From Nitrosarchaeum sp. (lineage in GTDB: Archaea; Thermoproteota; Nitrososphaeria; Nitrososphaerales; Nitrosopumilaceae), in the NCBI RefSeq assembly GCF_035968265.1, contig NZ_JAVYIM010000006.1:124001-188000 (forward strand): a stretch of DNA of 64,000 bases, read 5' to 3'. The notes under the pieces are model-generated. The model worked only from the letters and a program-made list of their open reading frames with translations. It searched no databases and was not told where the DNA came from. Of this stretch, positions 7,912-47,271 are shown piece after piece (positions within the stretch are counted from its first letter, which is position 1; each line of letters starts with the position of its first letter). Position numbers and translations under genes: made by a program.

Positions 7912-7919
7912 ATTTATAT
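7912..7919 (+). promoter_or_regulatory. TATA box of rpoL
   Basis: The sequence atttatat is centred about 30 bases before the rpoL ATG. That spacing predicts a leaderless or near-leaderless transcript. Confidence 0.55.
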
Positions 7920-7945
7920 CCACAATAAGTGCTTTTTCCGAATAC

Positions 7946-41548: not shown

Positions 41549-42529
41549 TTGACTAAATTCATTCGACGCCTACAACGTATAGGTAGCAGCATACTAGTTT
41601 CATTGCCAAAAGAATGGATAGTTGCTAATAATTTAGATAAAGGTAGTCAAATTGAACTTGAGACTGGACAAGATACCATTTCTATTTCTGCAAATAAAGA
41701 AATGCGTCCAACCAAGGAACTTGTAATTTCATATCCATTACCTAAAGATGAAAATATTGTTGCTGATATTACTGGAGCATATCTATTAGGATATGATGTT
41801 ATACTAATCAATTCCAAATCAACTATACCTGGTGTTGATAGAGAACAAATTAGAAATTCTATGCGACGATTAGTTGGAATGGAAATTATTGAAGAAGATG
41901 CCTCCCATATTAACATGCAATTTCTTTTGGATGCTACAACACTTAATCCAGAAAAAATTCTAAAAAGAATGAGCTCTATCGCACTTGGAATGTATGAAGA
42001 TGTATCAAATGGATTAATTTTAAATGATAAATCTAATTTACGAACATTATCAAATAGAGATGTAGAAGTAAACAGACAATATTTTCTTCTTGTACGTTTA
42101 ATCAGAAGTACACTTGTTGACAAAAGATTAGCTAATGTATTTAATCTAGAAAATATAGATATTTTAGATTATAGAGTAGCTGCAAATCTTTTAGAAAATG
42201 CTGGTGATACAATAGTCGAACTTGCTGATTTTATATATAATTCATCTTTGTCTGATCAACACTTGAAAAAAATTTTTGATGTAGTTCAAAATTTTAATGA
42301 TCTCGCAGAAAAGTCTATTGATGCTTTTACAAAACCTGATCGACGTTTAGCTATTGAAGCTATTGCATTACACAAAAAATATCAGGAAAATCTTTCTAAA
42401 CTAAGAAACACAATTGGAAATAAAAAAGAAATTCCAATTGATCTTCTTGATCTTGTTTATATGTTTGAACGAATTACTAAGTCATGGGCAGATGTAGTAG
42501 ATCTTGTAAAACCAATATACAATAAATAA
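41549..42529 (+). CDS. AbrB-PhoU fusion regulator
   Basis: 326 residues. The N-terminal SpoVT/AbrB DNA-binding unit (RRLQRIGSSILVSLPKEWI, about 5-23) is followed by PhoU-like three-helix bundles (about 110-320). Archaeal proteins with this architecture are linked to phosphate control, but their targets vary. TTG start. It is divergent from the CoA operon across 65 bases and convergent with the Nudix gene. A phosphate-responsive role is inference. Confidence 0.85.
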   Translation: MTKFIRRLQRIGSSILVSLPKEWIVANNLDKGSQIELETGQDTISISANKEMRPTKELVISYPLPKDENIVADITGAYLLGYDVILINSKSTIPGVDREQIRNSMRRLVGMEIIEEDASHINMQFLLDATTLNPEKILKRMSSIALGMYEDVSNGLILNDKSNLRTLSNRDVEVNRQYFLLVRLIRSTLVDKRLANVFNLENIDILDYRVAANLLENAGDTIVELADFIYNSSLSDQHLKKIFDVVQNFNDLAEKSIDAFTKPDRRLAIEAIALHKKYQENLSKLRNTIGNKKEIPIDLLDLVYMFERITKSWADVVDLVKPIYNK

Positions 42530-44088: not shown

Positions 44089-45276
44089 ATGGAATATCGA
44101 TTGCGATTAGCAAAAAGAATGCTGTTTAATAAAAAAGGAAGTCTAATCGGAGCTGTTTTAGCTGTTACTATTGGAATTTTGGTAATTCATGTAAATTTTG
44201 TAATTTTTCAGGGATTGTTTGATGCAATTGTTAGAGATATCTCAAATTATAGAAATGGGGATGTTCTAATCACAGATGAAGAAGACTACATCGACAAGTC
44301 TGATCAAGCATTAGTTAGTTGGTTTGAAAGAATCCCGTATGTAGAAGCAGCTACTCCCCGGTTGTCATCAAGTGCATCAATCAATATGACAAAATTTGGT
44401 ACATTACATGAAAAAACAAGAGTTCCTATTGTGGGTGTTGATCCATTTAGAGATATTCAAGCTTCTACAGTTCATGAAACTGTAACAGATGGACAATATG
44501 TTTTTGCTAAAAATTCAATTGTATTAGGTTCTAATGTTGCACGAGATATTGGTGGTGCTGAAGTAGGTGATAGTCTAAAATTAAAAATTGTTGATAGATA
44601 CGGTCAAGATCAAATTAGAAGGTTTGTAGTTACTGGTATAGCACAATCACCAGGTGGACAAGGCTTTGATTATAGTGTCGTTGTACACATTGATACTTTA
44701 CGTGACTTGATGAATAGAAATGGTGAATCAGGTTCAATAATGGTAAAACTAAACGATCCAACTAAAGCAGATGATGTTAAAAATTTCTTTTTAGCTGCTT
44801 TTCCTAACGATGATTTTATTGCAGAAACAATAGAAGAATCAGCTGAAGAACAATTAGCTGGTTTTAGATCTGGTATTGCTATGATAAACATGATTGGCTA
44901 TTTTGGAATGATGTCATCGGCATTTGCTATTGTTACAATTCAAATGATGTTAGTTAATGGAAAAACTAGAGAAATAGGAGTAATGAGATCAATTGGTGCT
45001 ACGCGAAAAGACATCTTGGTTATTTTTATTTTTCAGGGAATGATAATTGGTGCAATAGGAGCTGGAGTTGGTACTGCAGCAGGCTTAGGTTATACATTTT
45101 ATGCAAAGGAGACAAAAATGTCATTCAATAATAGCCTCCCATTGGAAGTAAGTTACAACTGGGAAAAAATAATTCAAACAGCAGTATTATCTTTTATGTT
45201 AGCAATAATTGCTTCATTATATCCGTCGTATAGAGCGACTAAATTATTACCTGTGGAGGCGATGAGAACTGTCTAA
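44089..45276 (+). CDS. ABC transporter permease (MacB/FtsX-LolE type)
   Basis: 395 residues. One N-terminal membrane helix (about 20-42), a large outside domain (about 45-265) and three C-terminal helices (about 275-300, 325-350 and 360-385) give the MacB/LolC topology. The C-terminal FtsX segment contains VNGKTREIGVMRSIGATRKDI. This family exports or releases substrates from the membrane outer face, working as a mechanotransmitter. It pairs with the ATPase gene that overlaps its end. The substrate is unknown. Confidence 0.88.
   Translation: MEYRLRLAKRMLFNKKGSLIGAVLAVTIGILVIHVNFVIFQGLFDAIVRDISNYRNGDVLITDEEDYIDKSDQALVSWFERIPYVEAATPRLSSSASINMTKFGTLHEKTRVPIVGVDPFRDIQASTVHETVTDGQYVFAKNSIVLGSNVARDIGGAEVGDSLKLKIVDRYGQDQIRRFVVTGIAQSPGGQGFDYSVVVHIDTLRDLMNRNGESGSIMVKLNDPTKADDVKNFFLAAFPNDDFIAETIEESAEEQLAGFRSGIAMINMIGYFGMMSSAFAIVTIQMMLVNGKTREIGVMRSIGATRKDILVIFIFQGMIIGAIGAGVGTAAGLGYTFYAKETKMSFNNSLPLEVSYNWEKIIQTAVLSFMLAIIASLYPSYRATKLLPVEAMRTV
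45255..45259 (+). promoter_or_regulatory. GGAGG ribosome-binding site before CTG start
   Basis: GGAGG (in gtggaggcg, about 45255-45259) is placed about ten bases before CTG 45269. It supports internal initiation of the ABC ATPase. Confidence 0.45.
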
Positions 45277-45973
45277 AGTACTTGAAATTAATAATTTAAG
45301 TAAAATTTATGGCACCGGTGAAAACATGGTAAAAGCCCTAGATAATGTATCATTTTCAATTGAAAAAGGAGAATTTGTATTAATTGTAGGTAGCTCTGGT
45401 TCCGGAAAATCTACTTTACTTAACATGATAGGTCTTTTAGATCGTCCTACAAATGGTAAAGTCTTCATAGATGGAATAGATACATCAAATCTATCTGACA
45501 ACCAAATCTCAACATTTAGAAATAAAAAATTAGGATTCATTTTCCAATTTTCAAACCTTTTAACTGATCTGACTGTTCTTGAAAATGTATTACTGCCAAG
45601 AGAAATTGCTGGAACTAATGATTCTGCTGAAAAAAATGCTAGAGAATTATTGAAGGCAGTTGGATTAGAGAATCAAATTAACAAAAGAGCAAATAAAATT
45701 TCAGGTGGACAAGCACAAAGAGCAGCAATTGCTAGAGGTTTGATAAATAACCCTTCAATAGTTCTAGCTGATGAACCAACTGGTAATTTGGATTCTGTAA
45801 CTTCTAAAATAATTGTTGATTTGATGAAATCGATGGCAAAAGAACTGAATCAAACATTCATTATTGTTACTCACGATCAACAACATTTTGGAGAAGCTGA
45901 TCGAATAATTACAATTAAAGATGGCAAAGCATCAGAGGAAGATCAACCATCTGAAATGGAGGTTTTAGTATGA
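45269..45973 (+). CDS. ABC transporter ATP-binding protein (LolD/MacB type)
   Basis: 234 residues if translation starts at CTG 45269. The in-frame ATG at 45326 would cut off the family-conserved first strand: the frame reads SKVLEINNLSKIYGTGENM before that ATG. No ATG, GTG or TTG exists in this frame after the preceding stop, and a GGAGG lies about 10 bases before the CTG. Walker A GSSGSGKST is at 41-49, followed by the signature SGGQAQR, Walker B VLADEPTG and an H-loop THD. It powers the preceding permease, whose gene it overlaps by eight bases. Confidence 0.85.
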   Translation: MSKVLEINNLSKIYGTGENMVKALDNVSFSIEKGEFVLIVGSSGSGKSTLLNMIGLLDRPTNGKVFIDGIDTSNLSDNQISTFRNKKLGFIFQFSNLLTDLTVLENVLLPREIAGTNDSAEKNARELLKAVGLENQINKRANKISGGQAQRAAIARGLINNPSIVLADEPTGNLDSVTSKIIVDLMKSMAKELNQTFIIVTHDQQHFGEADRIITIKDGKASEEDQPSEMEVLV

Positions 45974-47271
45974 TAAATTACAAAATTTTATTTTCATTGA
46001 CTATGTTGTTATTCATTCCATTAATTATTGATGATTCATACGCTCAAATCAAATCTGGTGGTTTTGGCCAATCGCCATTTGAACGAGATTTTGGAGATGT
46101 AAAATTTCTAGAAGGATATTTTGGAACAATTGATAAGAAAATAGAAATTGATCCTGGCGATGATAATGTCCCATTTACTGTAGTATTTGCAAATGTAGGA
46201 ACACAAGATATTACTGGAATTAAAGGCCAACTATCCCTTCCAGTTGGATTTTCTTCAGCAGATGGTCCTGGTTCACTAATAACTGCTAATAGCGATTCCA
46301 ATTCATTAGCTGGTGGTACTTTCTATATGACATTTAATGTTAATATTGATAAAAATATTCAGATTAAACAATATCCGGGTACTGTCAAAGTTGACTATTC
46401 TAGAATAAGAGAATCAGGAGTTAGAACTTCATTTTCCGAATTTACCTTTAAAGTTACAGGAGACAGTATAATCAATGTTAAAGCATTAGACCCATTTCTT
46501 ACGTCTTTAAAATTAAACAATGTTGTAATAGAAATTACAAATGATGGAACTGCACCATTATCTAGTGTAGATATTGTCGCTACTAATACTCAAACAGAAC
46601 TTGCATCTACTTCATCGTCAACTACTAATGTTGAAAACGTAGTAATCTTAGAATCAAACTGGGATGTTGGCAACATAAATCCAAAATCCTCTAGATATCT
46701 TACTGCTACAGTATACGTACCTGGAAATCTTCAACAAGATACATTACGAATTCCATTATCTATTCAATTCTATAATGCACATGGTGATTTACAAACTATT
46801 TCTAAAATTGTTGATTTTTACATTAGAGGATTGATTGAACTTAACATGTATGATGTAGGAGTGATTGAATTATCTAATACACAAATGGTTGTGGGAGAAA
46901 TAATAAACGAAGGAAATGAAAATGCAGTGTTTAGTTTTGTTACAATTGAACCTAGGGGTGACTCAAATATTAAAACTAAAACTCAATTTATTGATGAAAT
47001 TGAAATTGATTCACCTGTACCATTTAACATTCCATTAGAATTTGATGGTGAACCTAGATATGGCGAACACGATATCAAACTAACTGTAAGATACAAAGAT
47101 AGTGTTAGAGATGAAACACTATTTACACATGACGCTACAATATTTGTAAAAGAATCAGAAAAAATTCAATCTGATAATAGTTTTATGTTTATTATTCCAT
47201 TAATAGTAGCCGCTGCAATAGGACTCTATGTTATTCGTAGGCGTAAAAAATCAAAAATTCAGGCTAGTTAA
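45970..47271 (+). CDS. Exported surface-type protein linked to ABC exporter
   Basis: 433 residues. A signal peptide (about 5-24, ending SYAQ) and a C-terminal membrane anchor (about 403-422) followed by RRRKKSK place most of the protein outside. The outer part looks like two or three immunoglobulin-type domains (NVPFTVVFANVGTQDITGI...; NNVVIEITNDGTAPLSSV; MVVGEIINEGNENAVF), resembling archaeal COG1361/CARDB-type proteins. Its ATG overlaps the ATPase stop (ATGA), so it is part of the exporter operon, perhaps as a substrate or accessory protein. Confidence 0.75.
   Translation: MINYKILFSLTMLLFIPLIIDDSYAQIKSGGFGQSPFERDFGDVKFLEGYFGTIDKKIEIDPGDDNVPFTVVFANVGTQDITGIKGQLSLPVGFSSADGPGSLITANSDSNSLAGGTFYMTFNVNIDKNIQIKQYPGTVKVDYSRIRESGVRTSFSEFTFKVTGDSIINVKALDPFLTSLKLNNVVIEITNDGTAPLSSVDIVATNTQTELASTSSSTTNVENVVILESNWDVGNINPKSSRYLTATVYVPGNLQQDTLRIPLSIQFYNAHGDLQTISKIVDFYIRGLIELNMYDVGVIELSNTQMVVGEIINEGNENAVFSFVTIEPRGDSNIKTKTQFIDEIEIDSPVPFNIPLEFDGEPRYGEHDIKLTVRYKDSVRDETLFTHDATIFVKESEKIQSDNSFMFIIPLIVAAAIGLYVIRRRKKSKIQAS

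Follow-up and report, generated by a model that had tools for sequence, protein, structure and literature searches.

The window, a stretch of 64,000 nucleotides of Nitrosarchaeum sp., carries a run of three genes on the forward strand, namely a permease, an ABC ATPase and a third gene, each overlapping the next. The ATPase frame has no ATG, GTG or TTG at its expected beginning, and its very probable start codon is a CTG. The features of the run are the following.

44089..45276, + strand: MacB/LolC/FtsX-type permease ending ...PVEAMRTV and a stop codon; Pfam MacB_PCD and FtsX above cut-off
45255..45259, + strand: Shine-Dalgarno sequence GGAGG within the permease's Val-Glu-Ala codons, 9 nt 5' of the CTG
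45263..45265, + strand: in-frame TGA that bars an ATPase start any farther upstream
45269..45973, + strand: LolD/MacB-type ABC ATPase, 234 codons; matches to LolD, ABC_tran and MJ0796
45269..45271, + strand: CTG, very probable start codon of the ATPase, from a codon census over 166 family junctions
45269..45276, + strand: 8 nt shared by the ATPase start and the permease stop (CTGTCTAA); permease TAA at 45274-45276
45326..45328, + strand: earliest canonical codon of the frame, a Met inside the ATPase, judged a non-start (Met in 2 of 165 rows)
45970..47271, + strand: third gene, 433 codons, weak NEW3-like match; ATGA overlap with the ATPase stop

The ATPase matched TIGR02211 (LolD) best among the NCBIfam models with an E-value of 6e-78. 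The score of 261.3 bits stayed under the curated cut-off of 307.75 and the protein is therefore named LolD-like and not LolD. It reached 122.4 bits on ABC_tran (PF00005; gathering cut-off 25), and its translation holds the Walker A motif GSSGSGKST and the signature SGGQ. The top match among solved structures was MJ0796 (1f3o) with 1.3e-59. Strand 1 and a tyrosine of the ATPase align with this protein, beginning at MJ0796 residue 2. The tyrosine, encoded at 45308-45310, is aligned to Tyr 11 of MJ0796, which we take to be the A-loop residue that stacks on adenine. The permease scored 121 bits on NCBIfam lolCE, far below the cut-off of 362, and the third gene 21.4 bits on Pfam NPCBM_assoc (E 2.9e-4; cut-off 24.4).

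Directly behind TGA 45263-45265 the ATPase frame opens with GAA 45266 and CTG 45269, and no stop interrupts it until TGA 45971-45973. A preliminary description of this DNA had given the same coordinates for the ATPase and its CTG, and had placed a GGAGG about ten bases before the latter, inside the permease gene. Both were right, the gap being 9 nt. It had further called CTG the sole initiation-like codon after the preceding stop. CTG is indeed the only NTG codon of the frame before ATG 45326, the earliest in-frame ATG/GTG/TTG, but table 11 also permits ATT 45287 and ATT 45305 as starts. These two lie farther from GGAGG than the CTG, and starting there would trim the conserved strand 1.

The start column across Nitrosopumilaceae

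Within the window genome (1.53 Mb, 8 contigs) there is one close copy of the ATPase, the remaining matches having E-values of 6e-28 or weaker. A match at E 1e-70 or better exists in 217 of the 250 family genomes, and the junction DNA was read for a large sample, not for all of the 217. The sample comprised 80 named loci, 16 of the 18 members of the genus, 30 members of the family drawn from 17 genera, the 30 best of a further search (overlapping with the former) and 71 stretches taken by coordinates, including a few outgroups. Of 227 loci, 216 were aligned at E 1e-40, while the other 11 were paralogues from the window genome; 177 of the aligned rows were distinct over 360 nt. Ten distant rows with 49-56% identity were dropped. 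They belong to other families or phyla, except for the paralogue L106, which comes from a Nitrosarchaeum record. L220, from another family, was set aside, which left 166 distinct family junctions. Named loci were counted as family by similarity, with titles mostly of Nitrosopumilaceae genera and a few that are not (L030, L047). The rows represent junctions and not genomes, as at least two genomes contribute two copies, and near-duplicates may remain. One second copy of the gene pair (L219, genome G046) is about 70% identical and has GTG at the start column, and the other copy (L147) has ATG.

The codon 9 nt after GAGG was CTG in 116 of the 166 junctions, ATG in 28, TTG in 17, GTG in 3 and ACG in 2. 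The preliminary description had proposed to check whether relatives have ATG, GTG or TTG at this place, and 28, 3 and 17 rows, respectively, carry them exactly at the CTG column. This first census relied on a DNA pattern that demanded AGG at a fixed spacing, and two rows were assigned by hand: L121, for which a wrong upstream AGG had been picked, and L225 (GGAGG-9 nt-ACG), which the script had left unassigned. When the permease peptide motif P.EA.R alone was used for a recount, 164 of the 166 rows could be placed, all of them in the ATPase frame, with CTG in 115, ATG in 27, TTG in 17, GTG in 3 and ACG in 2. L108 and L203 do not contain P.EA.R and are hence absent from the recount. GAGG was present 9 nt before the start codon in 165 of 165 rows and the start/stop overlap was 8 nt in 164 of 165, the exception being L157 with an N in place of the stop. 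Sequencing error was rejected as the source of the CTG, which recurs in strain or culture records (L063, L072), in a single cell (L052) and in many metagenome bins.

On a FastTree tree of the permease and ATPase proteins, at least 19 changes among the four NTG states were counted. When the junction columns and seven long or sparse rows were left out, the tree gave at least 16 changes, with NTG in 159 of 160 rows, and 15 changes for CTG versus the rest; all of these counts carry no direction. Switches in such numbers (at least 16-19) mean that CTG and ATG/TTG/GTG replace each other at one and the same place. CTG occurs on many deep branches and is therefore probably old in the family.

The two ACG rows are the G+C-rich L216 (genome G246; 0.642) and L225 (G022; G+C content judged by eye). 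A synonymous T to C exchange in the permease would convert an ATG start to ACG. It is possible that ACG serves as a further non-canonical start in both; they could also start elsewhere, for instance at a CTG farther downstream in L225. Among seven rows from other families of the order (L220-L224, L226, L227), the layout was kept in two, with ATT in L220 and TTG in L221. The ATT of L220 (G291) lies in the same register after GGAGG and overlaps the permease stop.

In 165 rows, which are related and do not represent independent draws, each codon of the permease tail was examined. The middle base of the start codon is a wobble base of the permease, and it was T in all 126 four-fold rows; counting every row, T stood there in 164 of 165. 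Elsewhere in the tails, the T-ending fraction was 0.35 for Thr (ACT) and 0.25 for Ser (TCT of TCN). The Glu wobble in GGAGG was G in 165 of 165 rows compared to 0.32 elsewhere; the next highest value among the other 14 two-fold columns listed was 57%. Counted by the peptide motif without the DNA pattern, this Glu codon was GAG in 164 of 164 rows. The Val wobble in GGAGG was G in 155 of 163 rows compared to 0.26 elsewhere. Ranking the 22 four-fold columns of the last 60 codons placed the start T first (1.0) and the Val wobble second (0.95), followed by a column with 0.78. Permease coding alone does not account for this near-fixation of wobble bases; a start codon and its ribosome-binding site do.

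The window contains 73 ORFs, counting the ATPase, for which two or more of five syntenic regions supplied relatives; by eye, no second clear case was seen among them. Only in the ATPase is the first canonical start preceded by a long coding-like stretch that is neither antisense nor overlap. Another 100 kb of this genome holds 87 ORFs, and the 14 of them that stayed open upstream in all relatives compared, likewise judged by eye, included no clear CTG case either. ORFs with position-biased upstream stretches were dismissed as antisense: 38455 and 38755 oppose an ORF of 444 codons, 62889 and 63096 one of at least 545 codons, and the ORF at contig position 42506 one of 264 codons. The surveyed ORFs are not all genes and were examined only if five to six or more codons precede the first canonical start, so that short or diverged CTG cases would escape. 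With a second clear case absent among 159 other ORFs, the CTG start looks gene-specific, and a genome-wide habit of CUG starts was not seen in the surveyed ORFs. The GGAGG is itself unusual here: of 72 first ATGs in the window, taken as a crude proxy for starts, only 4 follow an SD-like core. Elsewhere in the window, a frame of 92 codons has 33 nt (7913-7945) ahead of its first ATG that are identical in three of the four relatives compared and show two differences in the fourth; they are either a strongly conserved leader or part of a longer protein.

Probable initiation at the CTG and competing readings

Very probably, the ATPase is translated from CTG 45269, with GGAGG setting CUG in the P site and Met-tRNAi reading it. 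Judged by the aligned junctions, the start site would almost certainly lie at the CTG column, and we strongly infer that CUG itself is decoded as methionine. A stop is found at the same distance upstream in 96 of the 116 CTG rows. A motif search located the A-loop aromatic in 164 of 165 rows, as Tyr in 143 and Phe in 21. Of the 116 CTG rows, 61 have no ATG, GTG or TTG from the upstream stop to this aromatic and 55 have some, in 41 of these 55 only downstream of the CTG. A canonical codon in the open frame upstream occurs in 14 of the 116. Downstream of the CTG, the first canonical codon follows within three codons in 6 rows and after 4-10 codons in 45 (51 of 116 together). The stretch from CTG to Walker A is free of ATG, GTG and TTG in 38 of the 116 rows and free of ATG in 103. 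From the sequence, CTG rows with such canonical codons might use another start; none of these codons is fixed across the family.

Given the CTG start, there is a serious, if somewhat doubtful, case that the CTG is passive and kept only by a preference of the permease for Thr or Ser at its penultimate position. The 116 CTG rows have Thr there in 95 cases, Ser in 17 and Ala in 4, as such a preference would have it. Lineages with other starts have Asn or Tyr (ATG), Val, Phe or Ile (TTG) and Ser or Gly (GTG) at this position, and Thr or Ser is therefore not essential there. Moreover, GTG could retain Ser, as it does in two rows. The genomes are mostly A+T-rich and a C to T exchange would yield TTG, yet 15 of the 17 TTG rows fall in one clade. 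Either the permease prefers a small residue at this position, or the CTG itself is selected, for example as a weak start. The CTG may perhaps also be kept to set the ATPase level against that of the permease. We tentatively suggest a wider version of this idea, with the CUG of Nitrosopumilaceae as a selected throttle: the SD sequence and coupling would load the ribosome, CUG would set the ATPase:permease ratio, and ACG or ATT would serve relatives, so that initiation would extend beyond AUG, GUG and UUG.

The remaining readings dispense with the CTG as start. A +1 shift at GTC TAA could fuse the permease to the ATPase and make a start codon unneeded, and the 8-nt overlap of the two frames in 164 of 165 rows would allow for it. 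This is highly improbable, as the stop codons vary (TAA 71, TGA 56, TAG 38) and the final sense codon is Val, Gly or Ala, so that no fixed slippery site is seen. A frameshift also needs no NTG and leaves both the swaps with ATG, TTG and GTG and the fixed four-fold T unexplained.

A start at another weak codon downstream, such as GTA 45278 or ATT 45287, is most unlikely, too. Such codons are present in the window, and ATT is listed in table 11; these two are 9 and 18 nt more distant from GGAGG, the ATT start would cut strand 1, and neither codon swaps with ATG, TTG or GTG in relatives.

That the ATPase begins at ATG 45326 with 215 residues, as a tool limited to ATG/GTG/TTG gives from the earliest such codon, is scarcely credible, because Met stands at this column in just 2 of 165 rows, strand 1 and the A-loop Tyr, both aligned to MJ0796, would be deleted, and the 20 codons before 45326 differ from those of four relatives mostly at third positions (11/7/24 summed; 2/3/2 for genome G002 alone). 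The preliminary description had placed a conserved first strand upstream of this ATG and had named relatives without it as evidence against the CTG start; the relatives keep strand 1, and the Met at 45326 is not conserved.

Proposed mechanism and comparison with known systems

For translation from CTG 45269, a 30S subunit, or a ribosome that has just finished the permease at TAA 45274-45276, would be positioned by pairing of GGAGG with the 16S tail. A 16S 3' end ...GGATCACCTCCT complementary to the SD sequence is present in the same genome; the two mismatches of the match precede the tail. CUG would come to the P site and Met-tRNAi would accept it despite the mismatch at the first position. 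The product would be the LolD/MacB-type ATPase of 234 residues with the N-terminus (M)SKVLEINNLSKIYG, presumably with methionine as its first residue. Translation of the ATPase is probably coupled to that of the permease, and the overlap between stop and start is as short as a termination-reinitiation pair calls for (8 nt in 164 of 165 rows). Placement led by the SD sequence together with coupling should reduce the demand on the start codon, and the weak codon may be tolerated thanks to both.

The bases of the SD sequence are predicted to be slightly less open than their flanks (0.33 versus about 0.5). RNA structure was rejected as the cause of the conservation, with only modest pairing around the site. 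A relaxed initiator tRNA was rejected as an explanation of the CUG start, as the anticodon stem-loop GCGGGCTCATAACCCGC looks normal with its G-C pairs intact. The probable initiator tRNA (L298, contig C8, 31098-31154 of the window genome) is a partial Rfam match with 31 bits over model positions 8-63. Its D-arm side seems unusually long, perhaps due to an intron.

A CUG start that persists across these abundant ammonia oxidisers, although a single mutation would give a canonical codon, offers a clean system for studying start choice by archaeal ribosomes. In practical terms, a gene caller limited to ATG/GTG/TTG would lose strand 1 and the A-loop of the ATPase in many of these genomes.

The ATPase sequence and the permease domains resemble LolCDE/MacB ABC transporters and MJ0796 (1f3o, 1l2t); unlike LolD and LolCE, the window proteins fall under both NCBIfam cut-offs. 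With the coupled short-overlap pairs of PMC10666635, as excerpted, the locus shares an overlap of 8 nt and genes whose products should form one complex. According to the same excerpts, coupling in Haloferax reporters dropped steeply with intergenic distance, and -8 overlaps are a recognised class, rated less efficient at coupling than shorter ones. The starts discussed there are NTG codons in general and the rare ATT, in contrast to the conserved CTG here.

In the accessible text of the archaeal review PMC7531240, AUG, GUG and UUG are given and the word CUG is absent. The matches listed in a literature search, with subscription journals mostly outside its reach, included no report of a CUG/CTG or non-AUG start in archaea. 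The GTC start of Streptomyces sigR is, in the excerpts of PMC5472188, likewise highly unusual and tied to regulation of translation; it differs in belonging to a bacterium, in the codon and in its repression via IF3. Closer in decoding is the rare CUG initiation of bacteria, which, in the excerpts of PMC11497404 and PMC5622118, shares CUG and the initiator tRNA with a mismatch at the first position. CUG makes up 0.024% of bacterial initiation codons there, and 2 of 61,358 reconstructed AUG starts of bacteria and archaea became CUG. In E. coli, CUG reached 0.86% of AUG (PMC11497404, as excerpted), so that either archaea would tolerate CUG better at this locus or the ATPase would be made at a low rate. 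CUG starts are rare in the bacterial genes that these excerpts cover, whereas here CUG prevails at the start of one gene across an archaeal family.
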